Shown here: one piece after another, positions 1 through 64,000 of the stretch
Layout: each line of letters opens with the position of its first letter
How positions within the stretch are numbered: the stretch's first letter is position 1
NCBI RefSeq assembly: GCF_900113285.1
Contig: NZ_FOOT01000001.1
Span: 1,054,001-1,118,000, forward strand
Reading direction: 5' to 3'
Origin: Pontibacter chinhatensis
GTDB lineage: Bacteria; Bacteroidota; Bacteroidia; Cytophagales; Hymenobacteraceae
DNA: 64,000 nucleotides
Notes under the pieces: model-generated
What the model was told of the DNA's origin: nothing
Seen by the model: only the letters and a program-made list of their open reading frames with translations
The model's database searches: none
Program-made: the position numbers and the translations under genes

Positions 1-38
1 ACCACCCAAGACGGAAGTAGCAAAAAGACTTCCGGTGA

Positions 39-84
39 AAGTATAAGCCGCCCTGTAACAAAAATTGCAGGGCGGCTTATACTT
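39..84. terminator. Hairpin with inverted AAGTATA words at its ends
   Basis: Two perfect 17-nt arms (39-55 and 68-84) enclose a 12-nt loop. The inner part is a GC-rich GCCGCCCTG stem, and each outer end carries AAGTATA or its complement. It probably terminates a gene entering from the left of the window. It is one of several terminators here built from an inverted pair of the dispersed word. Confidence 0.6.
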
Positions 85-200
85 TATACCTGTACTTCCA
101 GCCCTATACTCTCCTGCTCTAAAGTATAAACCCACCTTGCAACGCCACCAGCCCCTAAACCGTAAGCCCATACTTAGTATGTAAAGTATAAAAGTGTAGT

Positions 201-779
201 ATGACGTATATTTTCCAGGATTGGGCTGCCAACAAAGGCAATCTGAAAGGGCGGCTCGTGATGGTGCTCTTCCGCTTAGCCCGCCCCGCCTCTATCAATA
301 AGTTTTTCCGGATCTTGTGGCTTCCGTACCTTGCCTTCTACAAAGTTTTTGTGGAATGGATACTGGGCATTGAGCTGCCGCATTGGACGAGTGTTGGTTC
401 GGGCCTCGTGCTGGGGCACGGTCAGGCGCTGGTGGTGAACGGCTGCTCGGTTATCGGCAGCAACTGTTTTATCAGGCACTCCACCACGCTGGGCAACATC
501 CGCAAGCCGGATGGCTCCTACTCCGGCTCCCCCATCATCGGCGACAATGTGGAGATTGGCTCCAACGTCTGCATTATTGGGGAGGTGCGCGTAGGCAACA
601 ACGTCCGGATTGGCGCCGGATCGGTGGTGGTGAAAGACGTGCCCGACAACGCCGTGGTGGTAGGCAATCCGGCCCGGGTGGTGAAGTTCCTGGAGCCTGT
701 TGACGCTACAAACAAACCGGTGGCACCGGTGCAAAGTATAGCAGCGCCTGGCAAGGAAGTAAGCGCTGTGGACGCTTAA
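201..779 (+). CDS. CysE-like hexapeptide-repeat acetyltransferase
   Basis: This 192-residue protein is a left-handed beta-helix acyltransferase of the serine O-acetyltransferase type. Imperfect hexapeptide repeats run from about residue 65 to 160 (IIGDNVEIGSNV, VRVGNNVRIGAGSVV), with the usual catalytic-type His in IRHSTTLG at residue 93 and the family ending NPARVVKFLEP. The N-terminal helical domain of true CysE (about 270 residues) is missing. It may therefore be a short CysE form or a sugar O-acetyltransferase for surface polysaccharide; the sequence does not decide. It has its own hairpin upstream and no operon partner. The next gene converges on it with only a few bases between. Confidence 0.8.
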   Translation: MTYIFQDWAANKGNLKGRLVMVLFRLARPASINKFFRILWLPYLAFYKVFVEWILGIELPHWTSVGSGLVLGHGQALVVNGCSVIGSNCFIRHSTTLGNIRKPDGSYSGSPIIGDNVEIGSNVCIIGEVRVGNNVRIGAGSVVVKDVPDNAVVVGNPARVVKFLEPVDATNKPVAPVQSIAAPGKEVSAVDA

Positions 780-783
780 AGCC

Positions 784-1338
784 TTATTGCGGTATTTTGG
801 CTACTAACCTGGCAACGCCCTCGCTGATGCGTTTTTGCAGCTTTTCATCGTTATCCTCGGGTACCACGCCTTCCGCTGCGCCTTGCCACACCAGTTCGTT
901 GCGACTGTTATCCACCAGGTGCAGCGAGAGTGTACCCTGCTTGTAGCGGCCCACTTCTACTTCCCTGCTCTTCCAGGTGTAGCGGCGCTGGCCAACATAG
1001 TATGGCGGGTCGGTGAGGATGTTTGTTTCGCGCGTCTGGACTTTCTCGGCCACTACCACGCCCAGGTTCACTTTCAGGTCCGGCTGCGAGGTGCTGCGGC
1101 TCAGGCCACGTTGCTCCAACTGGCGGGTTATCTCTGCCTTCACCTGCTCCAGTTGATGGGAGTAGGGCTCCAGCTCTACGCCGCTTGCCTCTACCTCATA
1201 AAAATCAAAGGTTTTGTAGTTGGCCAGGTGGAACCCCGCGTCGGCCTCCGTCTCCAGAATCCGGACGGGCGAGCATGCCACCACCACCAGCCAGCAGAAA
1301 GATAGAAACAGGTATACTTTGGACGTTAGCTTCATCAT
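784..1338 (-). CDS. DUF4136 domain lipoprotein
   Basis: This is a 184-residue exported lipoprotein. A hydrophobic signal (residues 8-21) ends in a lipobox-like VVAC with Cys22. The rest matches the DUF4136 layout: an early 'YKTFDFYEVE' strand, a central VNLGVVVAEKV segment, a YTWKSREVEVGRYKQGTLSLHLVD segment that is typical near the middle of the fold, and a final LVAKIP stretch. DUF4136 proteins are common envelope lipoproteins in Bacteroidota with no assigned biochemical role. It stands alone, convergent with the acetyltransferase gene. Confidence 0.8.
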   Translation of the reverse strand: MMKLTSKVYLFLSFCWLVVVACSPVRILETEADAGFHLANYKTFDFYEVEASGVELEPYSHQLEQVKAEITRQLEQRGLSRSTSQPDLKVNLGVVVAEKVQTRETNILTDPPYYVGQRRYTWKSREVEVGRYKQGTLSLHLVDNSRNELVWQGAAEGVVPEDNDEKLQKRISEGVARLVAKIPQ

Positions 1339-1511
1339 TAAAAATTGCGTTATACTTTAAAGGGCTATACGCCATACGTTTAGATGCGTTTGTTACCCGC
1401 GGGGTGGCATACCCAAAGTATAAGGCAACCAGATTATGGAGAGAGCCCTCTAAATTTCGGGGCAGCAAACGTTGCAAATTTGATTTGGTGGCTGTAATTT
1501 GGCATTAAAAT

Positions 1512-1585
1512 CGGGGTGTAGCGTAGCCTGGTATCGCGCCAGCATGGGGTGCTGGAGGTCGTGGGTTCGAATCCCGCCACTCCGA
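1512..1585 (+). tRNA. tRNA-Pro(GGG)
   Basis: A full cloverleaf can be drawn: acceptor CGGGGTG/CACTCCG (one G-T pair), anticodon stem CCAGC/GCTGG around the loop ATGGGGT (anticodon GGG, proline), and T-arm GTGGG-TTCGAAT-CCCGC. The discriminator base is A1585 and CCA is not encoded. A terminator follows directly. The last 21 bases of this gene plus its terminator occur again at 3191-3253, which makes this tRNA the probable integration or duplication site for the DNA in between. Confidence 0.95.
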
Positions 1586-1795
1586 CTTTGCAAAAAGCCT
1601 TCTACTGCATGTAGAGGGCTTTTTTGTTAATGTAAAATGCGCTAGCTGGCGCAGGAATTCAGGCAAGAAAACCACCTGCAAAAACCGTAAGCTCTTTCTT
1701 ACATCTCCAAGCGCTCAAAGTGACGCTTTTTGTCCCACCACTCCTGTAGAATTTCCAAGCAAGCCTCTCCAGTCGTTATTATTTCTCCCTATATT
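1565..1795 (+). repeat. Copy A of the tRNA-end repeat and spacer
   Basis: Positions 1565-1627 match 3191-3253 with a single mismatch (tRNA 3' end plus terminator). After a poorly matching stretch, 1738-1795 aligns without gaps to 3343-3400 at roughly 70 percent, beginning with an identical CCACTCCTGTA and ending with an identical CCTATATT. The spacer to the next gene (1586-1918) has no open reading frame that looks real. Confidence 0.8.
1592..1627 (+). terminator. Terminator of tRNA-Pro
   Basis: An AAAGCCTTCTAC stem, a TGCAT loop and a GTAGAGGGCTTTTTT return arm with a T-run follow the tRNA by 6 bases. One base differs from the second copy at 3253, where GTAGAAGGC restores perfect pairing. 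Confidence 0.85.
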
Positions 1796-1918
1796 ACAAT
1801 GTAATTCCATATATTGTGCAGCTGGTAGCGACTGGTATTCCACATTTACAATGGTTGCTGCCAACTTATATAAAGCATTACCTAAATCCATCATCATTCA
1901 TTTTAAGCTTGCTACGAC

Positions 1919-2962
1919 ATGAAGCATACATTGCTACTGATTTTATTTCTTTGTTTAATAACAGGCGGACAAGCTGCTCAAACAAAGCCCATCCACGAGG
2001 CAAGTTTTGTTTCAATAGGCGGTATAGAGCAGTGGGTAACGATCAGCGGAGAGGACAGGGACAAACCTGTTATCCTGTTTCTGCATGGCGGTCCGGGCAG
2101 CACCATGAGCCAGTACGATGATGCCATCTACGGATACTGGAAAAAGGACTTCGTGCTGGTGTATTGGGACCAGCGTGGAGCAGGAAGAACCTTTGGCCGT
2201 AATGCACCTGAAACCATAACGGAGGATTACTGGATCGAAAACCCTCTGACCGTAGAGCGCATGACTGCTGACGGCATCGAGCTGTCAGAGTACCTGATCA
2301 AGCACCTCGGCAAGCGAAAAATAACGCTTGTAGGAACTTCCTGGGGATCAGTCTTAGGAGCCAGCATGGCCTTAAAGCGGCCAGAACTTTTCGCTGCTTA
2401 CATAGCCCATTCACAAATAGTCGATGGGCAAGAAGGGTTCCGTCATGCCTTCAATAAAGTGTCCAAACTGGCCCAGACCGCTAACGACGAGGAGTCTTTA
2501 AATAAGTTAGCGGCCCTAGGCCCTCCTCCCTATGGCGATGCCAGAAAATCAGGCCAGCTCATGCGCATCATCAAAAAGTATGAGCGGGAAAACTCAATAC
2601 CTGCCCCCGCCTCCTGGTGGAAGGTGGCGAGCGAATACGACAATGAGAAAGACACCAATGACAGGTATAATGGAGATGATTATTCCTTTTTATACTTCGC
2701 AGGCCATAAGGGAATGGGAATTAAATCCATGGAGGAAGCGGTGAATTTCAGCAAGGATGGGCTACGCTATAAGATCCCGGTATACTTTATTCAGGGTGAG
2801 GAAGATATCCTAACCGCGCCAGATCTTACCAAAGCGTATTTTGATAAATTGAAAGCTCCTAAGAAAGAGTTCGTGCTTGTGCCGGGTGCTGCACACGGGC
2901 ATAACCAAGCAGTGATTGACGCGCAGTATAAGGCGGTAAAAAAGGCCTTAAATCTCCGTTAA
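1919..2962 (+). CDS. Secreted alpha/beta hydrolase, proline iminopeptidase-like
   Basis: This 347-residue protein has a clear signal peptide (residues 1-20, cut near GQAAQ). It carries the oxyanion motif HGGPG (56-60), the family segment YWDQRGAGR (82-90), the nucleophile elbow GTSWG with Ser141, a likely acid Asp296 in GEEDILTAPD, and His326 in GAAHGHN. HGGPG with DQRGAGR is the hallmark of the proline iminopeptidase branch of peptidase family S33, but many homologues act on other small esters or amides, so the substrate is open. The gene is the only cargo between the two tRNA-Pro end repeats and has no operon partner. Confidence 0.85.
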   Translation: MKHTLLLILFLCLITGGQAAQTKPIHEASFVSIGGIEQWVTISGEDRDKPVILFLHGGPGSTMSQYDDAIYGYWKKDFVLVYWDQRGAGRTFGRNAPETITEDYWIENPLTVERMTADGIELSEYLIKHLGKRKITLVGTSWGSVLGASMALKRPELFAAYIAHSQIVDGQEGFRHAFNKVSKLAQTANDEESLNKLAALGPPPYGDARKSGQLMRIIKKYERENSIPAPASWWKVASEYDNEKDTNDRYNGDDYSFLYFAGHKGMGIKSMEEAVNFSKDGLRYKIPVYFIQGEEDILTAPDLTKAYFDKLKAPKKEFVLVPGAAHGHNQAVIDAQYKAVKKALNLR

Positions 2963-3051
2963 TAAATTAATAAGTTAATTGTAGAAACTGGCTACAACCA
3001 CGACAGTAAAGCTGCTATGCCAGCTTTTTGCCAGGACAGTCAAAATGAACT

Positions 3052-3097
3052 TGCGTCACTTCCTGCGTCAGTAGCGCTTGCGTCAGATGCTGCGTCA
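3052..3097 (+). repeat. Four TGCGTCA direct repeats
   Basis: TGCGTCA occurs at 3052, 3064, 3079 and 3091, with start-to-start spacings of 12, 15 and 12. The cluster lies about 90 bases before the second tRNA-end repeat. Clustered short direct repeats near an att-like site could bind a recombinase or its accessory factor. That is inference; no integrase gene is nearby. Confidence 0.5.
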
Positions 3098-3190
3098 GCT
3101 GGAGTTAAAAACATCGAAATTTCAACGGAAATCAACATTTAACCTACGCTTCTGAGGCATTTTTACATAGCATGAGTTGATGGTATTTGC

Positions 3191-3400
3191 GTTCGAATCC
3201 CGCCACTCCGACTTTGCAAAAAGCCTTCTACTGCATGTAGAAGGCTTTTTTGTTGACGCAAAAGTGAGGTTAATTGATGCAGGTTTCCTGGCCAAACTAG
3301 CACTGGAGCTGTTAGAGAGCAATTCTCCTTGTTTTCATTCTGCCACTCCTGTAAGATCTTTAAGCATGCTCCACTTACTTTAATTGTTTCTTCCTATATT
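3191..3400 (+). repeat. Copy B: duplicated tRNA-Pro 3' end, terminator and spacer
   Basis: This is a tRNA fragment (T-loop half, acceptor 3' strand and terminator) without the 5' two thirds, so it is not a functional tRNA. The match to copy A begins within the T-arm at 3191, a standard crossover region for tRNA-targeting recombinases. Further similarity at 3343-3400 shows that more than an att core was duplicated. The rest of the 2963-3505 gap holds no convincing gene. Confidence 0.85.
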
Positions 3401-3505
3401 CATTCTCTGAAAATATATGTCAACCACACGACCTTTATAGTGTAAGTGTAATCCTGCTATAAGCTGTTAAGCCTCCTCTTAGGATACTTACCAGCCTGAT
3501 GATAA

Positions 3506-4231
3506 ATGCTAAAAATGAATACTAAAACCGCGCTTCTGGGCCTAACACTTTTAACCTTGACGAATTGCTCTTCAAATATTGAACAGGCAAGCAACACCGT
3601 TAAGATTGTTGGGGAGATGAAAAATGTGATGTGGAAAGGGCAACTCTACGGGAACATTCATCTTGACACCCTCTCCGATAAAACACATTTACATGGGCTT
3701 GGCCCTCTTGAATATTTAGCAGGAGAAGTGTTAATCCTGGACGGGAAATCCTACAGATCAACGGTTATCTCCGACTCGACCATGAAAGTTGAAGAAACGT
3801 TTGATATCAAAGCGCCCTTTTTTGGGTACGCCAACATCGCTAAATGGACGGAACAGACGCTGCCCGACAGTATCCAGACAATTCAACAACTTGAACAATA
3901 CCTTGACGAGGTGACTGTGGCTTCAACGCGACCTTTTATGTTCAAACTCTCAGGAGCAGTTGACAAGGCAACAATTCATGTTGTGAATCTGCCGGAGGGC
4001 TCAAAGGTTAGCTCCCCGGCCGAAGCGCATGAAGGTCAGGTGAACTATCAAGTGAATAACGAGCATGCTGATATCGTCGGCTTTTTCTCAACCGAGCACA
4101 AAGCAATTTTTACGCACCACGATACTTTTTTACACATGCACCTCATCACCGCAGACAGACAAAAGATGGGACACTTAGACGAGGCGTTGTTTCAAAAAGG
4201 GACAATGAAACTATACTTGCCTACAGACTGA
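3506..4231 (+). CDS. Acetolactate decarboxylase-like lipoprotein
   Basis: This 241-residue protein has a lipoprotein signal (LTLTNC, Cys21). Its body is BudA-like: HLHGLGPLEYLAGEVLILDG early in the fold, and near the end HMH (His210, His212) followed eleven residues later by His223 in KMGHLDE. That reproduces the spacing of the zinc ligands of alpha-acetolactate decarboxylase, the enzyme that turns acetolactate into acetoin. A lipid-anchored, exported form suggests either an extracytoplasmic acetolactate-consuming role or a changed substrate. ATG 3506 and the in-frame ATG 3515 both give a good signal peptide. It is the cargo of the second tRNA-end repeat unit. Confidence 0.8.
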   Translation: MLKMNTKTALLGLTLLTLTNCSSNIEQASNTVKIVGEMKNVMWKGQLYGNIHLDTLSDKTHLHGLGPLEYLAGEVLILDGKSYRSTVISDSTMKVEETFDIKAPFFGYANIAKWTEQTLPDSIQTIQQLEQYLDEVTVASTRPFMFKLSGAVDKATIHVVNLPEGSKVSSPAEAHEGQVNYQVNNEHADIVGFFSTEHKAIFTHHDTFLHMHLITADRQKMGHLDEALFQKGTMKLYLPTD

Positions 4232-4766
4232 AAGGCATGAAGAGTATTTTGCCTTTTCGGAATATTATACTCCTTTCTAAGCGCTTTTAGTGATAACAGT
4301 ACTCTACTCACAAAACCCGGCCTTACACACAGCACGAGCCCGTTCCCTCCATAGCACCTCTAACAACCAACATTTAGGTTAGTGGATACGTAAACCATCC
4401 ATCTTATACTTTCGGAAAGTATAAACAGAAGAGAAGAACCTGGGCAGTTGGTCCATAGAAAGTATAAGTCGCGGTACAAAAGCGCCTCTGTCTGCTGTGA
4501 TGCGACTTTAAATAATGCAGCACTCACGGGTGCACGTAGTTGTTCCTGAGTATTCTAGTTGTATTACCGTCTACTCCTCCAGCACCATAAAAACGCTCCT
4601 GCTGCTCTGCTACGCCTTCAGGCTTATACTTACTTTTATTGCCCGGCTCCGTAAGTATGGGGCTAAATAAAGATATATGTGGCAAAGTATAGGGAAACGC
4701 TTATTTCTCTATGTATCTTTATGCTTATCATTCATACAAGGATTTAAACGCTCATTCAAAACCACC
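4232..4766. other. Non-coding spacer rich in AAGTATA words
   Basis: I see no gene here. The stretch holds several copies of the dispersed word, including an inverted pair with a 3-nt loop at 4404-4424 (TTATACTTT-CGG-AAAGTATAA) and further copies near 4459, 4623 and 4684. There is no clear TAnnTTTG box before the stressosome operon. Confidence 0.6.
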
Positions 4767-5642
4767 ATGGACAACACATTAGCGAAGGTACTACAAAACA
4801 ACAAGAAGAAAATCCTGGAGATCTGGATGCAAAACCAACTGTCGGATGTATCGCTGCGGGATGATCTGATATCTAACGAAGAGTTACGCCGTCAGTCAGA
4901 AGAGTTGCTTAGTGGCCTGGCCCATGCTGTTGCAAACGGCAGCACCGAAAATGTGCATGCCCCGGAGTATGAGCAAGTCACTGAGATACTAAGCGATATT
5001 TCCATTACCCGAGCCCGCCAGGGCTTTTCGCCCCGCGAAACAGGCATGTATGTGCTCAGCCTGAAGAAAGCCATCAGCCAGGTGCTGGAGGAGAACTACA
5101 ACACTCAACCGGATGTGCTCTACAAATCACTTCTGACACTCACCAACCTGATCGACAGCTTGAGCATGGTTACTTTCGAGACCTATATCAAGGGCCGCGA
5201 GGAGGTTATTCTCCGTCAAACCGATGAGATAAACGAGATTTCAACCCCGGTTATACGCGTGTGGGAAGGCATCCTGGCGCTCCCGATTATCGGAACGCTG
5301 GACAGCGCCCGTACGCAGACCGTTATGGAGAACCTGTTGCAGGAGATCGTGAACACCGGCAGCAGCATCGCCATCCTTGATATTTCCGGTGTGCCTGCCG
5401 TAGACTCGCTAGTGGCCCAGCACCTGATCAAAACCGTAAGCGCCACACGCCTGATGGGCGCCGAGTGCATCATCAGCGGCATTCGCGCCGAAATTGCCCA
5501 AACCATTGTGCACCTGGGCATCGACTTATCCAACATTAAAACCAAGGCTACGCTGGCCAGTGCGCTGCACCTGGCATTTAGCATGCGTAATGTGGAAGTA
5601 CGGAACATGAACAAAAATAAAGGTCTAAATCTAAGTAGATAG
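4767..5642 (+). CDS. rsbR: RsbR-like stressosome scaffold (RsbR N-domain + STAS)
   Basis: This 291-residue protein has an all-helical RsbR-type N-terminal half (about 1-165) and a C-terminal STAS domain (about 170-285) that reads like RsbRA: IGTLDSAR, VPAVDSLVAQH, ECIISGIRAEIAQTIVHLGIDL. The phosphorylation sites Thr171 and Thr205 of Bacillus RsbRA correspond to the LPIIGTLDSA segment (Thr177/Ser180) and to Ser214 in PAVDS. The reading frame is also open from ATG 4677, but those 30 extra residues look like a fortuitous hydrophobic segment, so I chose ATG 4767. It is the first gene of a five-gene same-strand module and would act as sensor and scaffold with RsbS. Confidence 0.85.
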   Translation: MDNTLAKVLQNNKKKILEIWMQNQLSDVSLRDDLISNEELRRQSEELLSGLAHAVANGSTENVHAPEYEQVTEILSDISITRARQGFSPRETGMYVLSLKKAISQVLEENYNTQPDVLYKSLLTLTNLIDSLSMVTFETYIKGREEVILRQTDEINEISTPVIRVWEGILALPIIGTLDSARTQTVMENLLQEIVNTGSSIAILDISGVPAVDSLVAQHLIKTVSATRLMGAECIISGIRAEIAQTIVHLGIDLSNIKTKATLASALHLAFSMRNVEVRNMNKNKGLNLSR

Positions 5643-5653
5643 CCTAGCGTACC

Positions 5654-6064
5654 ATGGAGAGAATTCCAATCCTGAAAATGGGCCCTTTCCTGCTTGTAAC
5701 CATACAAGTGGACCTGTACGACCGCCTTGCCCTTAACCTGGAAAGCGACCTGATTAACATGGTCAGTAAAACCGGCGCAAGAGGAGTACTCATTGATATA
5801 TCTGCCGTAAGCATAGTAGACTCCTTTATGGGGCGCATTCTGGGCAATATTGCCACCATGTCTCGTATTATGGATGCTGAAACCGTGGTAGTGGGCATGC
5901 AGCCTGCCGTGGCCATCACTTTAGTTGAACTGGGCCTTACCCTACAGGGTGTTCACACCGCCCTGGACGTTGAGAAAGGGATGGAACTGTTGCAGGAAAA
6001 GATGGGTATTTCAGAACATCCTGAGCAAGACGAGGAGGAGGACCAGGATGATAGTAATGACTAA
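5654..6064 (+). CDS. rsbS: RsbS-like single STAS-domain antagonist
   Basis: This 136-residue protein is a lone STAS domain close to Bacillus RsbS along its whole length (MERIPILKMGPFLLVTIQ, VLIDISAVSIVDSF, GMQPAVAITLVELGL). Ser57 in IVDSF is the counterpart of Ser59, the residue phosphorylated by RsbT. An acidic tail (about 120-136, EQDEEEDQDDSND) is extra. It starts 12 nt after rsbR ends and overlaps rsbT by 17 nt, so the two are probably translationally coupled. Confidence 0.88.
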   Translation: MERIPILKMGPFLLVTIQVDLYDRLALNLESDLINMVSKTGARGVLIDISAVSIVDSFMGRILGNIATMSRIMDAETVVVGMQPAVAITLVELGLTLQGVHTALDVEKGMELLQEKMGISEHPEQDEEEDQDDSND

Positions 6065-6461
6065 AGACACGATGCAAATCGTGCGGGAGCAGGATGTAGT
6101 ACCGTTTCGGAACCGGGTAAGGGAGCTTAGCACCAAGATAGGCATGAGCCTGGTGAACCAGACGAAACTCATAACCGCTGCCAGCGAGCTCGTGCGTAAC
6201 ATGCTTAAGTATGCGAACGGCGGCAAGGTGCTGCTGGAGACTATCAGCAAAAACGCACAGGCAGGCATCAGATTAACTTTTACAGATGAAGGCCCGGGCA
6301 TAGCCGATGTGCAGCAAGCCATGCGCGATGGCTTTTCGACGGGCAAAAGCCTGGGGCTTGGCCTGCCGGGAGCGAAGCGGCTTGTAAATGAATTTGACAT
6401 TAAAAGCACCGTAGGGCAAGGCACTACGGTAACTATAATACACTGGAAGCATGGACGTTAA
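6048..6461 (+). CDS. rsbT: RsbT-like serine/threonine kinase (switch protein)
   Basis: This GHKL ATPase of about 137 residues has an N box (ASELVRNMLKYA), a G1 box (TDEGPGI) and a G2 region (GLGLPGAKRLVNEF), the RsbT arrangement. RsbT kinases phosphorylate RsbR and RsbS, leave the stressosome and activate a downstream partner. The start at ATG 6048 is supported by a purine-rich GAGGAGGAG about 8 nt upstream, an unusually good Shine-Dalgarno site for this phylum; ATG 6057 is the alternative. The gene overlaps rsbS by 17 nt and the next gene by 11 nt. Confidence 0.85.
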   Translation: MIVMTKDTMQIVREQDVVPFRNRVRELSTKIGMSLVNQTKLITAASELVRNMLKYANGGKVLLETISKNAQAGIRLTFTDEGPGIADVQQAMRDGFSTGKSLGLGLPGAKRLVNEFDIKSTVGQGTTVTIIHWKHGR

Positions 6462-7494
6462 GCAACACCAGCGCTTTCTGATACCAGATAAATCGTATGC
6501 CAGTATTGCAAAGCGGGAGGTAACACGTATCGCTGAAGGTATTGGCATGTCTGCCAACGGGGTAGGAAAGCTGAACATTGTGGTGGCAGAAATGGCATCT
6601 AACCTCGCAAAGCACGCCGCTTTGGGTGGCGAACTGCTGGTGCGTGTGCTGGGCGCCCCATACCCAGGAATTGAAGTAATCTGCCTCGACAGCGGCCCCG
6701 GCATGGCAGACCCCTCCAAAATGCAGGAGGACGGTGTTTCTACACTCGGTACAGCCGGAGAAGGACTTGGGGCCATTAAGAGGCAGTCGGATGTATTTGA
6801 CTTATACTCGCAGCAGGGCGTAGGCACGGTTATACTTTCCAGGATATACCTCAACAATAAAAGCACAGCCGGTGCCCAGGCTGCCAGCCACCACTACGAC
6901 GTTGGCTATGTGCTGGTGCCAAAGCCCAAAGAAACCTTATGCGGCGACGGGTTGGCCATACTAGAGCACGAGAAAGGCGTTTACCTGCTTGCCCTGGATG
7001 GTCTTGGCCACGGCGCAAGCGCCCACGAGGCCTCCCAACTGGCGGTACAGTTCTTTACCTCCTCCCCTGCCCTGCTACCGGCCGACGCGCTTCGCAATAT
7101 CCACCAAAGTATAAAACGCACCCGTGGGGCTGTGGGCATTGCGGCCAACATCAGCACCCGGAGCAACAGGCTCAGTTACTGCGGAATAGGCAACATAGCA
7201 GGTAAGCTTTACGGCCCTGATGGTTCCTATGGCAGCAGCTCTTACAAGAACATCATCTCCTATAACGGCATCCTTGGCCACAACATCCCAACAACCCTGA
7301 ACAGCCAGGAACTGGAGTGGGGCCACCACCGTATGCTGATACTGCACTCCGACGGGCTTAAATCGAGGTGGGACCTGAGCAGGTACCACGCCCTGAACCG
7401 CCACCTGCCCTCTACCGTTGCCGCGCTGCTTTATAAAGACCACAGCCGCCAAACCGATGATGCACTTGTGGTGGTGTGCCGCAGTAAACCATAA
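6451..7494 (+). CDS. Fusion of RsbT-like ATPase and SpoIIE/RsbX-type PP2C phosphatase
   Basis: This 347-residue protein has two domains. Residues 1-135 form a second GHKL module (VVAEMASNLAKHA N box, LDSGPGM G1 box, GEGLGAIKR G2 box). Residues about 145-345 form a PP2C/SpoIIE phosphatase with the metal-site motifs LALDGLGHG, LHSDGL and TDDALVVV. In Bacillus the kinase RsbT and the phosphatase RsbX that resets the stressosome are separate proteins; here a kinase-like module is joined to an RsbX-like one. Likely role: dephosphorylating RsbR/RsbS, with the ATPase part as docking or regulatory domain. It overlaps rsbT by 11 nt. Confidence 0.85.
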   Translation: MDVKQHQRFLIPDKSYASIAKREVTRIAEGIGMSANGVGKLNIVVAEMASNLAKHAALGGELLVRVLGAPYPGIEVICLDSGPGMADPSKMQEDGVSTLGTAGEGLGAIKRQSDVFDLYSQQGVGTVILSRIYLNNKSTAGAQAASHHYDVGYVLVPKPKETLCGDGLAILEHEKGVYLLALDGLGHGASAHEASQLAVQFFTSSPALLPADALRNIHQSIKRTRGAVGIAANISTRSNRLSYCGIGNIAGKLYGPDGSYGSSSYKNIISYNGILGHNIPTTLNSQELEWGHHRMLILHSDGLKSRWDLSRYHALNRHLPSTVAALLYKDHSRQTDDALVVVCRSKP

Positions 7495-7500
7495 CCCGTT

Positions 7501-8853
7501 ATGCCACAATACATACTCAAAATAGAGATAAACAATGAGCTGGACGTGGTGCTGGCCTACAAGCGCGCCATGCAGCTATCTGAGCGGCTGGGGATGCAAC
7601 AGGCCAACCAAACCAAGTTTGCCACAGCGGTATCTGAAATTTGCCGCAATGTGGTGGAGTATGTGGGCAGTGGCAGCATACAGTACAGCCTTGCCGAAGT
7701 AGCAGGGCGCAGGTACCTGGAGGCATTGGTCTCAGACAGAGGTCGGGGCATAGGCAACCTAGATGATATCCTGAAACGCACAGACCTTGTATCGTACAAC
7801 AACCGTGGCACCGGCATTCTTAATTCGAGAAAGCTGGTGGACCTGTTTGAGATTGAGAGTGATTTTGAGCGGGGCACGCGCGTAAGGCTAGCTAAAAGCC
7901 TGCCCCAATCCAGCCCTGCCATCGGCCGGGAAATGCTAAAGCACTGGATACAGGAGTTTGAACACGAGGCCGTTATTTCGCCCTACGCAGAGATAAAGAG
8001 GCAGAACATGCAATTGCTGGAGGTCCTGGAGCAGCTGCGCATGCGCAACCTGGAGGCCGAGCAGCAGCTGCAGGAAATTCGCCGCCTGAACACGCAGCTG
8101 CAGCAGTCGAACCAGGAGATCAACAAGCTACTGGAGGACAGGGAGAAGCAGAACCTGAAGCTGCAGGACATCAACCAGAACCTCGATGCCTTTGCCCACA
8201 CTGTTTCCCATGACCTGCGCGCCCCGCTGCAGAACATAAACGGCATTTCCACCGCTCTGGAAGCCTGCCTAGAGGCCGGGCAACTGGAAGAGGCGGCGTA
8301 CGTTTTCCCGATGCTGCGGCAACAGACCCAAAAAATGGATCGCCTCATCACAAGTATACTTGCCTACTCGCTGGCAGGACATGGCAACCTGCCCAAAAAA
8401 GCTCTGGACCTGCAGGTGCTGCTACACCAGGTTGTCGCGTCGCTTAATGTACCCGCTACCTTCCGGATAGAAATTCAGGAGAACCTGCCGGTGCTATACA
8501 CACAGGAGATATACTTGTATCAGGTTTTCAGCAACCTGATCAGCAATGCCATCAAGTACCACGATCAACCGGAACAGGCGCTTTTGCAGATTAGCTATGA
8601 GCTGAAACCAGACTTCCTATACTTTACTGTGGAGGACAACGGGCCAGGCATCCCTGCCGAAAGACACAGGCAGCTTTTTAACATGTATGAACTGGGGCAC
8701 TCCTTCCCGCGGGAGAACAGCTCCGGGCTGGGCCTGTCGATTGTGCGCAAGCTGGTAGAGGAAAAAGGCGGTAGTATATGGTTAGACTCGTCAGGCCGTG
8801 GCAGTCGCTTTACCTTTACCTGGCCAACGTATGAACTGATACTGGAGGAATAA
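7501..8853 (+). CDS. Sensor histidine kinase with an N-terminal RsbT-like ATPase domain
   Basis: In this 450-residue protein, residues 1-135 are a third GHKL module (VSEICRNVVEYV, SDRGRGIGN, GTGILNSRKLVDLF). Residues about 160-230 form a long Gln/Glu/Leu-rich coiled coil. A HisKA domain follows with FAHTVSHDLRAPL (phospho-acceptor His237), then a classical HATPase_c domain (NLISNAIKYH, VEDNGPGIP, GLGLSIVRKLVEEKGG). There are no membrane segments, so it is cytoplasmic. The product therefore carries both an anti-sigma/RsbT-type ATPase and a two-component kinase, a plausible bridge from stressosome output to phosphotransfer. It starts 6 nt after the phosphatase gene, and its likely partner regulator lies convergently just downstream. 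Confidence 0.85.
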   Translation: MPQYILKIEINNELDVVLAYKRAMQLSERLGMQQANQTKFATAVSEICRNVVEYVGSGSIQYSLAEVAGRRYLEALVSDRGRGIGNLDDILKRTDLVSYNNRGTGILNSRKLVDLFEIESDFERGTRVRLAKSLPQSSPAIGREMLKHWIQEFEHEAVISPYAEIKRQNMQLLEVLEQLRMRNLEAEQQLQEIRRLNTQLQQSNQEINKLLEDREKQNLKLQDINQNLDAFAHTVSHDLRAPLQNINGISTALEACLEAGQLEEAAYVFPMLRQQTQKMDRLITSILAYSLAGHGNLPKKALDLQVLLHQVVASLNVPATFRIEIQENLPVLYTQEIYLYQVFSNLISNAIKYHDQPEQALLQISYELKPDFLYFTVEDNGPGIPAERHRQLFNMYELGHSFPRENSSGLGLSIVRKLVEEKGGSIWLDSSGRGSRFTFTWPTYELILEE

Positions 8854-8887
8854 AAAAGGTGCTGTTTGGACAGCACCTTTTTTATTT
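8853..8887. terminator. Bidirectional terminator
   Basis: AAAAAGGTGCTGT, a 4-nt loop and ACAGCACCTTTTT lie exactly between the kinase gene and the convergent response regulator gene. A-run and T-run flanks serve both strands. Confidence 0.85.
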
Positions 8888-9331
8888 TTTCTTCTTGAAG
8901 AACTCTCTCATAATCTCATCCACGTCATACTTGGTGAGGGCTTTGGAGAAATGTTTCTTCACCTTTGAATAAGATTTTAGGCGCTCCAAATCGTAGAAGC
9001 TGGCCGAGGAAGTAAGCATAAGTATGATAATCGGATCCACTTCCTCTTGCGCTACCTGGTGGTATTTGTCCAGAAAGGCAAACCCATCCATCACGGGCAT
9101 TTTGATATCCAGAAAAATTAGATCCGGAATCTTATACTCCCCTTCGTTCCCTGGCTGCTTCGCCTTGTTAAGATACTCCAGCGCCTCCTGCCCGTTCTTT
9201 AGAGCCAGTACCGTTTTAGCTACCTGCATCTCCCGAAGCAAACGCTCGTTCAGGTAGTTTGTGGTGTCATCATCATCTACTAACAACACCAGATCCAACG
9301 GATAATTATAAGACTTAACCAAGCTACTCAT
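8882..9331 (-). CDS. Single-domain response regulator
   Basis: This is a 149-residue CheY-like receiver without an output domain. It has the acidic cluster VDDDD near residue 20, phospho-acceptor Asp75 in LIFLDIKMPVMDG, Thr107 in LMLTSS and Lys130 in FSKAL; the usual Pro after the Lys is Ala here. The length and the long loop before the phosphorylation site (GNEGEYKIPD) match the Bacteroidota group of Rcp1-like regulators. It converges on the stressosome histidine kinase across a shared terminator, so it is the best candidate for that kinase's phosphate acceptor. Confidence 0.88.
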   Translation of the reverse strand: MSSLVKSYNYPLDLVLLVDDDDTTNYLNERLLREMQVAKTVLALKNGQEALEYLNKAKQPGNEGEYKIPDLIFLDIKMPVMDGFAFLDKYHQVAQEEVDPIIILMLTSSASFYDLERLKSYSKVKKHFSKALTKYDVDEIMREFFKKKK

Positions 9332-9662
9332 AGTGCCTTATGTCCCCTCAAAGTTTAATCTCTCTCCTGCAGCATATACTTTTGCCATGGGAGGATCTGT
9401 TTACCACCTGCGAATATCGCATTAGTGTAGTTAATATCAAAAGTGACTTCTTACTATTTTATAACATGTAAGTGCTCAGGCTCCTATATGATACAATCAC
9501 GCTCTCCCTTGTGGCACGAGGTTGGGAATTAAATTAACCAAACCTGCCACAGCAACTCTATTTCCATCAAACCGCCCCTATCCGGCATATCCTTTTAGAC
9601 AAAGTATAAGTATGAGGTGTAGGAGGCCACTGGCCCAAGATCATTAACCTAGCATTTATACT
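9332..9662. other. Intergenic region, no gene seen
   Basis: AT-rich spacer between the divergent response regulator and the small coiled-coil protein. It contains a TACTTTTG box on the plus strand at 9377-9384 (about 280 bases before the next plus gene) and AAGTATA words near 9376 and 9602. Nothing else is recognised. Confidence 0.5.
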
Positions 9663-9959
9663 ATGGATAATTACCCTTTGAAACCCGAAAACATGCGCGT
9701 GCCGGAGCACCTTACCAAGGGCGAGGTACAGAAGAGCCTTGATGAGCTGGATAATAAAATAAAGACCCTAAAAGCCCGTGTAAACGCCACCACAGCAGAC
9801 TCTAACCATACCTATCATGAGCACATTGCCGGGCTGGAGCGGAAGCGCGAGCTGATCCTGCAGAAGATGGGAGACCCCAACAACAACGAGCAGCACTGGA
9901 GCGACCTGCACAAGAACATTGGTAACCTCCACAACGATGCCGACGGCCTGATGAAATAA
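9663..9959 (+). CDS. Small charged coiled-coil protein of unknown function
   Basis: This 98-residue soluble protein has no signal peptide. Residues about 20-75 are highly charged and heptad-like (VQKSLDELDNKIKTLKARV, IAGLERKRELILQKMG). The C-terminal part is rich in His and Asn (HWSDLHKNIGNLHNDADGLMK). Small proteins of this sort are often found among stress-induced proteins, but I do not recognise the family and assign no function. It stands alone and is followed at once by a strong terminator. Confidence 0.65.
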   Translation: MDNYPLKPENMRVPEHLTKGEVQKSLDELDNKIKTLKARVNATTADSNHTYHEHIAGLERKRELILQKMGDPNNNEQHWSDLHKNIGNLHNDADGLMK

Positions 9960-9992
9960 AAAAAGCCCCTGCATTGCTGCAGGGGCTTTTTT
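9958..9992. terminator. Terminator after the coiled-coil gene and paaN
   Basis: A GCCCCTGCA / TGCAGGGGC stem with a TTGC loop, A-run before and T-run after, can serve both the plus gene ending at 9959 and the minus paaN gene ending at 10014. Confidence 0.8.
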
Positions 9993-10013
9993 GTAAATAT
10001 AAATTTATACTTT

Positions 10014-19090: not shown

Positions 19091-19656
19091 TCTCCGTGCT
19101 TTTCTGGCGCAAGCGTCCGCTTGTGTCCGCTACTAGCGGCCGCTTCCTTTAACATGAACCAAGCTATCCTTACCAGCTGCCGTTCCTCCTCCAGACCTAC
19201 ATACCTACAGTTGCACCTCTAACTTGGCTCCCTCCCAGACCGGGAGGCCTCGCCTTCGGGCATCGCGCTGTGTTCCCTCCTTGCCTCGCTTTCGCTCGGC
19301 ATGCCCTTAACGGGCACCGGATCTCACAAGGCGCTCAACCCAAAGGCTGGGAATTACTCGATAGCCGCTGCTTTTTGTCATCTCGACCTTTGGGAGAGAA
19401 CTAAAGGGAATTCCACCTGTCATCTCTCGCCCTGCTCAAGATGACAGGTGGAGCGGTAAGTATAAATTCCCCTCTCGGGAGGGGCTAGGGGTGGGTTTAT
19501 ACTTTGCAGAAACAGCAGCAACGAAGCTTATACTTCGGCAACAGTAACCACAAGTTCCCCGCCTTGGACAAGGAGGGGTTAGGGGTGGTTGGACCCGGGC
19601 CTGCAAAGCTCTCCTTTGTGAGTAAGGCCTCAAGAACAGCAAGGAGCCAGACAATG
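19091..19656. repeat. Repeat-rich non-coding region with REP-like palindromes
   Basis: No gene is seen. It contains an inverted pair CCACCTGTCATCT (19413-19425) / AGATGACAGGTGG (19439-19451); a CCCCTCTCGGGAGGGG palindrome followed by AGGGGTGGG (about 19466-19500); and a related element CCCCGCCTTGGACAAGGAGGGG followed by AGGGGTGG (about 19556-19590). Similar elements occur at 53947-54027. Such G-run-tailed palindromes are known as dispersed intergenic repeats in many bacterial genomes. Confidence 0.65.
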
Positions 19657-20274: not shown

Positions 20275-20509
20275 TTTTCATAGGTTATTTTGCTGGTGCA
20301 AAGCTACCTACTGATCCTATACTGCCTTTTACATAATTCCGGCTGAGGATTACAAATTTGTCCGAAGTGGAGCTTTTAGGATTGAGTTAATTGGCAGGGT
20401 TTATACTTTGTCTGAAGTCTGTTAGTTTCTGGTTAATTGTCGTTCATACTTCTAGATTACGACACAAGCGTTTGCTTATACTACTCTCACACAACCAGAG
20501 CATGCAGCA

Positions 20510-20851
20510 TCAAAATGTTACTTCATTTACTCCAAGAATAGCCGCTACAAAAACCAACGCTATTACTCCTCCGAAAGAAATCCAAAACAGATTTACATAA
20601 AGCATCACTTTGTTTTGCAACCTGTTGGTTTCTGGATCCTCGAAGTCTTTAAACTTGATATAGATTGGAAAGAATAAGCCTATGTTGCCGTAGAAAAGGA
20701 TCGGGTTAAAGTACAAGTGCAGAAATTTAGCATCTGCTAGTTCGGGGTTCAGCCTCCTGCGCAACTGGAAATGATAATAGGCCTTGCTATATAATAGGAT
20801 GATAGCTAAAACGACAAGAGAAAGTACGGTATAACTATAGATCAGCTTCAT
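20510..20851 (-). CDS. Small membrane protein of unknown function
   Basis: This 113-residue protein has three hydrophobic segments (about 3-22, 50-64 and 85-107) separated by charged loops. I do not recognise a family. It starts 8 bases after the stop of the polyprenyl synthase gene on the same strand, so it is probably the second gene of that operon. Confidence 0.6.
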   Translation of the reverse strand: MKLIYSYTVLSLVVLAIILLYSKAYYHFQLRRRLNPELADAKFLHLYFNPILFYGNIGLFFPIYIKFKDFEDPETNRLQNKVMLYVNLFWISFGGVIALVFVAAILGVNEVTF

Positions 20852-20859
20852 GGAAGCGC

Positions 20860-25234: not shown

Positions 25235-25241
25235 GACCGGG

Positions 25242-26142: not shown

Positions 26143-26193
26143 AAAGTATAAACGCCCTCTCCGGCACTTGGCCAGAGAGGGCGTTTATACTTT
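26143..26193. terminator. Terminator with 19-bp arms ending in AAAGTATAAA words
   Basis: Perfect 19-nt arms (26143-26161 and 26175-26193) join an inner CGCCCTCTC stem to outer AAAGTATAAA words. A further TATACTT lies 3 bases beyond. It sits downstream of fabD on the minus strand. Confidence 0.85.
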
Positions 26194-34977: not shown

Positions 34978-35031
34978 CAAAGTATAAAAAAGGGGCTGCA
35001 GCTATCGCTGCAGCCCCTTTTTTATACTTTG
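34978..35031. terminator. Perfect 25-bp inverted repeat terminating the dcw operon
   Basis: Arms at 34978-35002 and 35007-35031 are exact complements with a 4-nt TATC loop. Each outer end is a CAAAGTATAAA word, the centre is a GGGGCTGCAGC stem, and A/T-runs serve both strands. It is placed between the FMN reductase and ftsZ. Confidence 0.9.
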
Positions 35032-54061: not shown

Positions 54062-54111
54062 TACAAAGTATAAAAAAGGAGCCTGACCAGGCTCCTTTTT
54101 TATACTTTGTA
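54062..54111. terminator. Perfect 24-bp inverted repeat terminator
   Basis: Arms at 54062-54085 and 54088-54111 are exact complements with a 2-nt loop. Outer CAAAGTATAAA words and an inner GGAGCCTG stem repeat the design seen at 34978-35031. It lies between convergent units. Confidence 0.88.
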
Positions 54112-58763: not shown

Positions 58764-60260
58764 TTATACATGTACGGTAACCGGCGGTGCGTATTCCTTC
58801 TCAATTTCCTTCGCCACAACCTGCCCTGATATAAGTGAGGGCGGCACGCCAGGCCCGGGCACGGTGAGTTGCCCGGTATAGTAGAGGTTACGGACTTTCC
58901 TGCTCTTCAGGCTGGGCTTGAGGATGGCCGTCTGAAGCAGCGTGTTGGCCAAGCCGTAGGCGTTGCCTTTAAAAGCGTTATAGTCCTGTATAAAATCGCG
59001 GTGCGCATAGCTGCGCTTGTAAATAATATGGCTTCGGATCTCCTGCTTCGTCAGGCGCTCCAGGCGGTCCATCACCAGGTGAAAGTATTTCTCGCGCAGC
59101 TCCTCGGTATCCTCCAGGCCCGGCGCGACAGGGATAAGTATAAACAGGTTTTCGCAGCCCTCCGGCGCCACGCTAGGGTCGGTTACGGAAGGCGCAGAAA
59201 CATAGAAAAGCGGTTTGCGGGGCCACTGCGGTGAAGTATAAATCTCCTCGGCATGCGGGCCAAAGTCCTCGTCAAAGAAAAGGTTGTGGTGGCGCAGGTG
59301 CTGCAGGCGTTTATTCACCCCTACGTAAAATAAGAGCGAAGAAGGCGCCATCACGCGGCTATCCCAGTAAGTATTAGAGTAGCTCTGGCTGGATTTCGGC
59401 AACAGCTCCGTCTCCACGTGGTGGTAGTCGGCGCTGGCCACTACCACGTCTGCCTCAAACACATCGGTAGTAGTCACCACCTGGTTTATACTTCCGGCCT
59501 GCACCTCCAGCCGCTGCACATCCTGGTTGTAGAGAAAGCGTACTCCCTTCCCCTCCGCCAGCTGCACCATTCCCTCCACAATCTTATACATGCCGCCCAT
59601 CGGGTACCAGGTACCCAGGCTGATGTCGGCGTAGTTCATGAGGCTGTACAGGGCAGGGGTGTTCTGCGGCAAAGCTCCCAAAAACAGGATGGGGAACTCC
59701 ATGAGCTTGATAATCTTCTCGTGCCGGAAAAAGCGGCGAATGTGCTTGTGAAACGACTGGAACACATCCAGGCGCAGCACATCCAGCAGCAGGCGCGGGC
59801 TCATAAACTCGGTTACGGAGCGGCCGGGTTTGTACACGAGCTGGTTGATGCCCACCTCATACTTATAGGCGGCCTGCTCCAGAAACAAATCCAGCTGCGC
59901 AGCGCTGCCGGGCTCCATACTTTCCAGGAGCGCCTGCAGCTCCGGCAGCCGGGCTGGTATGTCTACAAAATCGTCCTCGCCAAAGATAACCGTATAGGAA
60001 GGGTCCAGGCGGCGCAGGTCGTAATAATCGGAAGTGCTTTTCCCGAACCTGTTAAAGTATGACTCGAACACGTCAGGCATCCAGTACCAACTGGGGCCCA
60101 TGTCAAACGTGAATCCATCGGCGGTGAAGCTTCGGGCGCGGCCACCGGGGCTGCTATTCTTTTCCAGCACGGTTACCTCATAGCCTTTGGCAGCCAGGCT
60201 GGTAGCAGCTGACAAACCCGAAAAGCCCGAGCCGATAACGATCACTCGTGTTCCACCCAT
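58764..60260 (-). CDS. crtI: Phytoene desaturase
   Basis: This 498-residue FAD oxidoreductase has the dinucleotide fold VIVIGSGFSGLSAATSLAAKG, EKNSSPGGRARSF, GPSWYWMPDVFE, and the C-terminal CrtI signature GQLTVPGPGVPPSLISGQVVA. It performs the desaturation steps from phytoene to lycopene. It follows the ECF sigma gene by 24 bases and precedes crtB. Confidence 0.94.
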   Translation of the reverse strand: MGGTRVIVIGSGFSGLSAATSLAAKGYEVTVLEKNSSPGGRARSFTADGFTFDMGPSWYWMPDVFESYFNRFGKSTSDYYDLRRLDPSYTVIFGEDDFVDIPARLPELQALLESMEPGSAAQLDLFLEQAAYKYEVGINQLVYKPGRSVTEFMSPRLLLDVLRLDVFQSFHKHIRRFFRHEKIIKLMEFPILFLGALPQNTPALYSLMNYADISLGTWYPMGGMYKIVEGMVQLAEGKGVRFLYNQDVQRLEVQAGSINQVVTTTDVFEADVVVASADYHHVETELLPKSSQSYSNTYWDSRVMAPSSLLFYVGVNKRLQHLRHHNLFFDEDFGPHAEEIYTSPQWPRKPLFYVSAPSVTDPSVAPEGCENLFILIPVAPGLEDTEELREKYFHLVMDRLERLTKQEIRSHIIYKRSYAHRDFIQDYNAFKGNAYGLANTLLQTAILKPSLKSRKVRNLYYTGQLTVPGPGVPPSLISGQVVAKEIEKEYAPPVTVHV

Positions 60261-62441: not shown

Positions 62442-62447
62442 AGAAGG

Positions 62448-63257
62448 CTACCACTTTATTTCTTCTTTGTTCAGAAAAGCGGCAATTCCGCGCTGGCAGT
62501 CCTCGCTACCGCGCGCCACGGCATTCATTTCGGCGGCATACTGCAGCCCCTCCTCCAGCGACATACTCTGTACACGGGCAACCATCTCTTTGGTTACCTC
62601 CATACTTTGTCTGGAGTTCTCGGCGCAGAGTTTCTGGGCAAAGGCAAACACCCGCTCCTCCAACTCCTGCACGGGCACCACATAGTTTACCAAACCATAG
62701 CGTTCGGCCTCCTCAGCCGATATTAAATCGCCTGTCAGCAGCAGCTGCTTGGCCCTCGACTCCCCTATTTTGCGCAGCAGGAACACCTTCACAATCGCCG
62801 GGATAAAGCCGATTTTCACCTCTGTATAGCCAAACCGGGCTTCAGGAACGGTAAAACCAAAGTCGCAGATGGCAGCCAGCCCGCAACCGCCTGCAATGGC
62901 GTGGCCGTGTATCTGGGCGATAACCACTTTCTTTAAAGTATAAATCAAACGGAAAAGCTCCATCAGGTGGGTAGAGTCCAGCAGGTTCTCGTGGTAATCG
63001 TTTTCCTGCAGGCGCTGGATGTACTCCAGGTCGGCACCGGCGCAAAATACTTTGCCCTCCGCCCGCAGCACAATCACTTTGCAGGCCTCGTCCTCCTCGG
63101 CGATGCTGAAAGCGCGCTTCAGTTCAGATACTACTTCATAGTTTAAAGCATTGCGTTTCTCTGCCCGGGCCAGGGTGATGTACCCTACCCGCTCTTTTAC
63201 CTCATAGTGCACGAACTCCATTGTCAGCCGCTCGGCCGTATTAGTCAGGTCAGTCAT
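62448..63257 (-). CDS. Enoyl-CoA hydratase/isomerase family protein
   Basis: This 269-residue crotonase-fold protein has ARAEKRNALNYEVV, the oxyanion segment GKVFCAGADLEYIQ, HGHAIAGGCGLAAICDF and ARFGYTEVKIGFIPA, with the second-site acid in this last segment. The C-terminal part (LEEGLQYAAEMNAVARGSEDCQRGIAAFLNKEEIKW) is typical of hydratases of the PaaF/PaaG and methylglutaconyl groups. It is divergent from the TetR gene, with a PaaR-type operator between them, so a phenylacetate or related acyl-CoA role is likely. Confidence 0.85.
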   Translation of the reverse strand: MTDLTNTAERLTMEFVHYEVKERVGYITLARAEKRNALNYEVVSELKRAFSIAEEDEACKVIVLRAEGKVFCAGADLEYIQRLQENDYHENLLDSTHLMELFRLIYTLKKVVIAQIHGHAIAGGCGLAAICDFGFTVPEARFGYTEVKIGFIPAIVKVFLLRKIGESRAKQLLLTGDLISAEEAERYGLVNYVVPVQELEERVFAFAQKLCAENSRQSMEVTKEMVARVQSMSLEEGLQYAAEMNAVARGSEDCQRGIAAFLNKEEIKW

Positions 63258-63386
63258 GATGTTTGTCGTTTAGTAAATAAGGGCTTTGTAAATATACGGA
63301 ACCGCCGAAGCAACGCTACATTAAATCGGAGACATATGATTTCCCCTCAAAATACTTGGCCCGTACTCCTATAAACCTTCTAAAAG

Positions 63387-63400
63387 TATAAACGTTTATA
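63387..63400. repeat. Perfect 14-bp palindrome TATAAACGTTTATA
   Basis: It lies 11 bases upstream of the PaaR-type operator in the divergent promoter region. Its left half is part of an AAAGTATAAAC copy of the dispersed word. It may be a second regulator site or chance pairing of that word. Confidence 0.45.
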
Positions 63401-63403
63401 AAA

Positions 63404-63425
63404 TAAATTTGCTAACGAACGTTAG
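63404..63425 (+). promoter_or_regulatory. TetR promoter and PaaR-type operator
   Basis: TAAATTTG (63404-63411) is a perfect TAnnTTTG. It is followed at once by CTAACGAACGTTAG (63412-63425), an inverted repeat that agrees at every fixed position with CNAACGNNCGTTNG, the consensus I recall for Thermus PaaR, a TetR-family repressor of phenylacetate genes. The operator covers the expected transcription start of the tetR gene and lies between it and the divergent hydratase. Confidence 0.7.
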
Positions 63426-63450
63426 GTTGTGTATGTTTGTTACTTATGGT

Positions 63451-64000
63451 ATGGAAGCAGTATTGACCAGGAAAGAGCAAATCGAGAAGACCGCCACGGC
63501 CCTTTTTAAAAGCAAGGGATACGCGGCCACCTCAATGCGCGATCTGGCCAATGCGCTTGGCATCGAAGCCGCCAGCATTTACTCGCATATCCGATCAAAA
63601 GAGGAGATACTGCAGCGGGTGTGCTTTAAGATGGCCGACGAGTTTTTTGATGCCCTGGATGCCGCCGAAAGTATGGAAAGCACCGCCACCGTGCGCCTGC
63701 AGCGCGCCATTGCCGCCCATGTGCAGGTGCTGACGCAGAACACAGAAGCCTCGGCCGTTTTCCTGCACGAGTGGCGCCACCTGAGCGAGCCGCTGCACAG
63801 CAACTTTCTGGCCCTCCGCGATAAGTATGAGGCCCGCTTCCGGGAGATTATACACGAAGGCATTCAGCGCGGGGAGTTTACGGTGCCGGACGAAAAATTT
63901 GCCGTGCTTACCATACTTTCTGCCCTTAACTGGATACACACCTGGTACAAGCCAGAGGGTAAAATGACGCCAACAGAGATTGCCGAGAACCTATCGGAGA
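63451..64000 (+). CDS. TetR/AcrR family regulator, PaaR-like (truncated by window end)
   Basis: At least 183 residues are visible; the 3' end lies outside the window. The N-terminal TetR helix-turn-helix reads IEKTATALFKSKGYAATSM, then RDLANALGIEAASIYSHI and RSKEEIL. The ligand domain includes AVFLHEWRHLSEP and ALNWIHTWYKPEG, the sort of ending seen in fatty-acyl-CoA or phenylacetyl-CoA responsive regulators. ATG 63433 is an in-frame alternative start eight bases after the operator. It most likely represses itself and the divergent hydratase until the CoA-ester inducer appears. Confidence 0.85.
   Translation, partial: MEAVLTRKEQIEKTATALFKSKGYAATSMRDLANALGIEAASIYSHIRSKEEILQRVCFKMADEFFDALDAAESMESTATVRLQRAIAAHVQVLTQNTEASAVFLHEWRHLSEPLHSNFLALRDKYEARFREIIHEGIQRGEFTVPDEKFAVLTILSALNWIHTWYKPEGKMTPTEIAENLSE

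Follow-up and report, generated by a model that had tools for sequence, protein, structure and literature searches.

In Pontibacter, AAGTATA is probably a word by which DNA of the cell's own kind is recognised in natural transformation. It was studied in a 64,000-nucleotide stretch of DNA from this genus (positions 1..64000; the whole stretch is called the window here), where the dense dispersed word that an earlier note had observed is confirmed. The best fit to the sequence comparisons, to which we give a probability of about 0.6, is that the word has this function and was spread by molecular drive.

Word counts and consensus

When expected counts were calculated from the dinucleotide composition (order-1 Markov model), AAGTATA was found by direct count 130 times in the window (61 copies on the plus strand and 69 on the minus strand) against 5.1 expected (z of 55), or about 25 times above expectation. 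Our recount gave the same numbers as the earlier note for AAGTATA and TATACTT together (24 in bases 1-10,000 and 29 in bases 20,001-30,000). The density in the window is uneven, with 10 copies of AAGTATA in 30-40 kb vs 29 in 20-30 kb. The extended form AAAGTATAAA is present 19 times on the plus and 15 times on the minus strand (0.1 expected). In the whole genome (5,072,663 bases in 25 contigs), 2,253 copies of AAAGTATAAA were counted (1,083 plus and 1,170 minus) vs 18 (7 plus and 11 minus) for the reversed word used as control. The genome-wide count is far above expectation, and the claims of the earlier note that the word exceeds chance and lies in both orientations were upheld. The density of AAGTATA is about 2.2 per kb (980 copies in 20 stretches, window included, covering 439 kb of the 5.07 Mb).

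Twenty of the 21 single-letter variants of AAGTATA have 3-19 copies each in the window, 0.5 to 4.5 times expectation; the remaining variant, AAGTATG, has 56 copies vs 6.7 expected. An A is preferred 5' of AAGTATA, and A or G followed by A or C on its 3' side, and farther columns are nearly flat. Forms with at most one mismatch from the 10-mer number 6,895 in the genome, compared with 507 for the control. This excess agrees with the drive of near-matches by uptake bias described by Bakkali (in passages of PMC1939737).

Placement relative to genes

The 439 kb sample, in which 355 genes were predicted by codon-based calling, contains 551 copies of AAGTATA within genes, 411 outside and 18 on gene edges, in keeping with the earlier observation of copies inside and between genes. 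The genic copies are divided into 274 sense and 277 antisense, so that no strand bias locked to transcription is seen. Non-coding DNA has 5.5 words per kb and coding DNA 1.5, a 3.7-fold difference. In intergenic gaps of 20-1,000 bases, there are 10.5 words per kb between convergent genes, 6.3 between tandem genes and 5.3 between divergent genes. When the codons were shuffled synonymously, 52.6 genic words were obtained vs the 551 observed, and all six phases exceed the shuffles 4.6 to 52 times. The word is therefore imposed on codon choice.

Inverted pairs at terminators had also been claimed. They hold up as a sequence feature: 12 of the 51 close convergent word pairs (4-45 bases between the words) run directly into an unbroken hairpin stem with 4-22 further pairs. 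Same-strand doublets of AAGTATA 6-11 bases apart are also frequent in the 439 kb (43 cases, for example AAGTATAAAGTATA); they may reflect cooperative reading or only the overlap of AT-rich ends.

Dialects in the genus

Fifty genomes of the window's genus (taken to be Pontibacter) were surveyed, with 30 to 375 kb sampled per genome. Some dialect word was found in 42 genomes and no clear word in eight. The dialects, labelled A to E by us, are AAGTATA (A, alone in 19 genomes), AGGTATA (B, 12 genomes), AACTATA (C, alone in four genomes), [CAT]TATATA (D, one genome) and CGGTATA (E, one genome, in which it is weak with 30 copies vs 5.8). Five genomes (G012, G014, G016, G045 and G049) carry both A and C, and these could be switches in progress or, perhaps, have a reader that accepts both words. 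The word signal is weak in the samples of G016, G023 and G048. TATA is common to all dialects, and the flanks are dialect-specific (A-AAGTATA-A, C-AGGTATA-G and AACTATA-G).

When the dialect labels were placed on a tree of the ComEC protein (a single gene, with G020, G038 and G040 entered as partial sequences and G041 counted as B), 10 changes were required vs a mean of 27.2 for shuffled labels, and none of 200 shuffles was as low. Apart from G041, dialect B forms a single clade. Dialect C sits in a clade of seven, the deepest branch of which (G045) carries A and C, and the two-dialect genomes G016 and G049 lie outside this clade. Judged from this tree, the dialects go mostly by clade.

The pattern ARSTATAR, which spans A, B and C and leaves D and E outside, was compared with its reversed form as control. 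The ratio was 3.6 to 16 in 40 genomes labelled A, B, C or A+C, 2.8 in G041 and 1.2 in G035. In the case of the word-less genomes, the ratio was 0.95 to 1.45 in three of the eight and 1.9 to 2.5, about twice the control, in the other five (G013, G027, G036, G037 and G047). Some word-less genomes may thus be eroded rather than primitive, and their residual ARSTATAR may be what remains of a lost word.

Outside the genus, 150 genomes from five sister genera of the family were sampled. The words A, B and C did not rise above background there, and ARSTATAR was at most about 1.4 times its control. Other dispersed words were sought in 76 of 80 loci of public genomes that match the window's aconitase (those of at least 9 kb), among which the sister genera have only a few named loci. 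Four candidates (L053, L103, L108 and L116) turned out to be local arrays. CAATGCA (20 vs 4.1) and GAATGTA (19 vs 3.6) occur on both strands across 22 kb of L070 (Dyadobacter crusticola) and are a candidate for a further such word in the phylum. In L080 (Xanthocytophaga flavus), GCTGTTAC was found 18 times on both strands vs 1.8 expected, with more than half of the copies in the first 8 kb; this excess is perhaps due to a repetitive gene.

Evolution of word sites

Species pairs, not independent of each other, were formed from 32 genomes that carry just one of dialects A, B and C, and their comEC regions were compared. Across bins of rising identity, same-dialect words were retained at fractions of 0.37, 0.46, 0.60, 0.68 and 0.78, above the 7-mers of the same letters in all five bins (0.26, 0.28, 0.34, 0.42 and 0.62). 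In the 80-85% identity bin, for instance, 0.60 of 2,105 words were kept vs 0.34 of 15,633 same-composition 7-mers. Between dialects, 22 of 353 A places had the C word and three still had A; among 548 places of the control 7-mers, none showed this change and 202 were unchanged. C was replaced by A at 21 of 646 places (control 0 of 596), A by B at 79 of 1,330 (control 116 of 5,952) and B by A at 83 of 1,805 (control 120 of 5,387). In a codon alignment of comEC (48 genomes, 32 of them used here), six columns are common to A and B words vs a mean of 0.13 when positions were shifted, and six are common to A and C words vs a shifted mean of 0.32; none of 1,000 shifts was as high in either comparison. 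Taken together, retention and shared columns show that words are conserved individually and that some have been converted from one dialect to another at the same site.

Where the word is rare

G001, G002 and G019 each have a small second contig. Seven 20-kb stretches of these contain 33 words in 140 kb (1 to 11 each) vs 104 words in 90 kb of chromosomal samples from the same genomes, so that the second replicons are about five times poorer. Those of G001 and G019 carry conjugation genes (TraG, type IV secretion system coupling protein). That of G002 was called a second replicon from its size and cargo only. In G028, the stretch L267 has 17 words vs a mean of 66 in eleven other stretches. It was considered as a foreign island and rejected, as it is a ribosomal-protein region. 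Rarity in both places is expected if words build up in exchanged, change-tolerant DNA but stay few where DNA is new or under tight constraint. A plasmid collection queried with aconitase DNA gave no match, which is little informative.

Import machinery and search for a reader

ComEC and DprA were matched in all 50 genomes of the genus, with broken frames of comEC in G020, G038 and G040 and of dprA in G020 and G040. A helix-hairpin-helix (HHH) protein is encoded by an open frame of 304-346 amino acids in 49 of the 50 genomes and is in pieces in G020. These breaks may be real losses or assembly errors. G020 was also considered as a case of competence loss with word decay, because it has the fewest words of its clade (480) as well as broken comEC, dprA and HHH frames. 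The case was not used, since the open frames of G020 are short overall (maybe an assembly error) and the intact genomes G001 and G002 have fewer words (426 and 380).

No receptor-like gene was seen among ten frames scanned around comEC in the window genome, of which one frame had no family match, and a Pfam search of one raw 3-kb stretch gave no match. DUF5689, a domain of a surface protein required for transformation in Riemerella, was followed as a candidate for the reader. Three of the 12 short DUF5689 proteins were inspected and adjoin SusD-like or TonB-receptor-like genes. The ten long ones are one family, present in six genomes with words and four without; the three that were scanned are nuclease-like with lamin-tail, exonuclease-like or sorting domains. 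The candidate was rejected, as explained below.

Evidence against the uptake interpretation

Several observations weigh against an uptake word. The import genes are equally intact in the eight word-less genomes, and the full dialect is retained in G038 (broken comEC) and G040 (broken comEC and dprA). Since ComEC, DprA and the HHH protein are present with and without the word, machinery and word are not simply linked. No ATPase of type IV pili or type II secretion was found: PF00437 was below the cut-off in 47 of 50 genomes, the matches listed spanning about 38-66 of 370 positions with up to 31 candidates scored per genome and pilins themselves outside the search. DUF5689 is present in 22 of the 50 genomes, the window's own not among them, and does not match the word distribution. 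On the ComEC tree, the two-dialect label is scattered with four changes (77 of 500 shuffles were as low), as is the word-less label, also with four. Moreover, B and C are rarely at the same sites (B to C at 2 of 445 and C to B at 2 of 459 aligned words, counts that have no control), and they share two comEC columns, which was equalled in 2 of 1,000 shifts.

Alternative explanations

A Chi-like site or another intracellular signal for recombination or repair is the first alternative. Here, an AddAB- or AdnAB-type nuclease would shift its specificity between clades, and the word would spread by steering gene conversion or by shielding DNA from degradation. The many copies, the scarcity on second replicons and the clade dialects would fit, and a Chi-type site could be driven too. 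Chi-type sites are, however, oriented with replication. In the 20 stretches of the window genome, orientation against GC skew was 112 plus and 132 minus, and 344 plus and 392 minus, for the two signs of skew; in 12 stretches of G028, it was 237 plus and 187 minus at positive skew and 161 and 162 at negative skew. No clear tie of orientation to replication, as judged by GC skew, was thus seen in the sampled stretches of these two genomes, which on those stretches speaks against both Chi and FtsK-orienting polar sequences (KOPS). A replichore-oriented motif of either kind had been suggested by long plus runs in the lists of places; the fetched stretches show both orientations, and the runs are an artefact of listing. 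Inverted pairs at hairpins are also without obvious use for an oriented signal. We therefore regard a Chi-like site as unlikely.

Secondly, an orphan DNA methyltransferase or a restriction-modification system could lie behind the word, as with the highly iterated palindrome (HIP1) of cyanobacteria. HIP1 words are very frequent, and exceptional genomes use other words (in portions of PMC4390886). HIP words are palindromic, in contrast to dialects A, B, C and E. Only two methyltransferase families were searched: N6_N4_Mtase (PF01555) was unmatched in 19 of 50 genomes, including the window's own, and the Eco57I type (PF07669) was unmatched in three of 50, with many weak matches and mixed frame lengths. 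A link of this kind appears improbable.

The word could also be bound by a nucleoid protein or another organiser of the chromosome whose specificity changes fast. This would account for the density, both strands, the low density on second replicons, the hairpins and the short same-strand doublets. It can be argued that a vital function is unlikely to be lost in eight of 50 genomes of one genus or rewritten repeatedly at many sites, and the chances of this explanation are small as well. Finally, mutational or codon-use bias without any reader is suggested by the AT-rich word and the mild excess of other T-rich TATA forms (such as TTTTATA, 323 vs 121), but it is very hard to reconcile with a single 7-mer 25 times over expectation, most of whose single-letter variants are at 0.5 to 4.5 times, an excess over synonymous shuffles in all six phases and related species that favour different letters, partly at identical sites.

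Other features of the window

A pigment gene for a carotenoid desaturase is located at 58764-60260. The positions of the extended word and of the hairpins are collected in Table 1. The dispersed inverted element listed there is about 45 bases long and has a core of CCCCTCC...GGAGGGG with CCCACCCC, flanked by two inverted words. Further copies were observed in L014 (4358), L015 (8916 and 16031) and L017 (3713). It is possibly a repetitive extragenic palindromic (REP)-like element that took up the word.

Table 1 Copies of the extended word and inverted structures in the window
Feature	Position	Strand	Remarks
AAAGTATAAA	starts 121, 183, 4416, 7106, 13687, 14230, 15194, 19038, 22928, 23069, 23279, 26143, 27537, 27720, 34979, 44544, 54065, 62935, 63383	+	direct count
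AAAGTATAAA	ten bases from 10004, 11535, 19496, 20400, 23386, 25293, 26085, 26184, 26192, 35021, 39179, 42395, 50721, 54099, 54813	-	direct count
Inverted word pair as hairpin base	39..84	not assigned	10 further pairs, terminator-like
Inverted word pair as hairpin base	26144..26192		11 further pairs, terminator-like
Inverted word pair as hairpin base	34980..35029		16 further pairs, T run ending the arm, terminator-like
Inverted word pair as hairpin base	54066..54107		13 further pairs, terminator-like, between convergent predicted genes
Palindrome AAGTATACTT	8352..8361		formed by two overlapping words, within a predicted gene
Dispersed inverted element	19458..19504		CCCCTC...GAGGGG core, bounded by two inverted words

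Comparison with known systems

Uptake sequences are well known from Neisseriaceae and Pasteurellaceae, and in both families they are imported via type IV pili. The DNA uptake sequence (DUS) of Neisseriaceae is used in terminator-like inverted pairs, and its reader is the minor pilin ComP. The Pontibacter word resembles DUS in several respects, according to the sections of PMC3630211 concerned: thousands of copies, dialects along the phylogeny, an invariant core (CTG in DUS, TATA here), the coexistence of two dialects in one genome (at almost equal counts in Simonsiella muelleri) and some relatives without an obvious word. DUS density peaks in Kingella oralis, with 5,918 copies in 2.4 Mb or one in about 405 bases (same sections). 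In contrast to DUS, the Pontibacter word has other letters, another phylum and 7 firm letters vs 10-12; CTG is in none of its dialects, and without a pilus ATPase found, a minor-pilin reader of the ComP type is not expected.

The uptake signal sequence (USS) of Pasteurellaceae is likewise a dispersed word for homologous DNA with divergent dialects, and a type IV minor pilin is its proposed reader (both from parts of PMC12616744), unlike Pontibacter, where no pilus ATPase was found. In the same work, ComN was modelled in complex with uptake-word DNA. The USS is a AAGTGCGGT word with an extended AT-rich flank (passages of PMC1939737), a flank that the Pontibacter word does not have. HIP1 is comparable as a short word at high density with exceptional genomes that use another word (portions of PMC4390886). 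It differs as a palindrome linked to orphan methyltransferases, whereas the Pontibacter words are mostly non-palindromic and PF01555 and PF07669 do not follow them.

Within the Bacteroidota, the transformation of Riemerella is described in the available text of PMC8459023. Besides ComEC, DprA, ComF, RecA and an HHH protein, it requires a DUF1343 protein, a DUF5689 surface protein and, in the outer membrane, a protein with a carboxypeptidase-regulatory domain. ComEC, DprA and the HHH protein are shared with Pontibacter, and no known pilus gene is among the essentials in that text. Its authors proposed that DNA is bound at the surface and transported through a barrel; the term 'uptake sequence' is absent from the same text. 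A consistent counterpart of the DUF5689 surface protein was not found among the 50 Pontibacter genomes.

The claim of the earlier note that the word matches uptake sequences therefore stands in part. Density, presence on both strands and tolerance in coding DNA agree with it. So do the dialects that go mostly by clade, the genomes with two dialects, the scarcity on second replicons and the selective conservation of words, and these four in particular go the way of uptake sequences. The letters differ from DUS and USS, no pilus ATPase was found, and genomes without a word have ComEC and DprA too. The system would work like DUS but is not filed as DUS or USS because letters, core and pilus differ. 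Searches of the literature on uptake words in Bacteroidetes/Bacteroidota and on Pontibacter competence, which mostly did not cover subscription journals, gave no account of a comparable word from this phylum.

Proposed mechanism and significance

We infer uptake as the driving process, together with the existence and location of a reader protein and the sequence in which a dialect switch unfolds. A DNA-binding protein of the surface or periplasm, other than a type IV pilus, would prefer word-bearing DNA, and such DNA, mostly from kin, would pass the envelope. ComEC would then import it, DprA would protect it and RecA would recombine it. As word-bearing fragments would replace homologous chromosomal DNA more often, the word would accumulate wherever coding constraint allows, which is molecular drive. 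If the specificity of the reader shifted in a lineage, old words would decay and near-words, including old words, would be rewritten to the new dialect, with the TATA half alone persisting through the switch.

It is about an even bet, on the sequences compared, that Pontibacter has a sequence-specific import without a type IV pilus. In such a system, an envelope receptor of Bacteroidota would read TATA-core words, at least five dialects would have arisen from changes in its specificity and would be barriers to gene exchange between clades, and this would be a third independently evolved uptake-sequence system. If true, self-recognition would be separable from the pilus, and such systems would arise repeatedly. 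The 50 genomes, with their apparent gains, losses and switches, would allow drive and mate recognition to be tested against each other as causes of uptake-word evolution. A protein that varies along with the dialect would offer a route to the outer-membrane DNA receptor, and a matching word added to donor DNA could ease the transformation of these bacteria.

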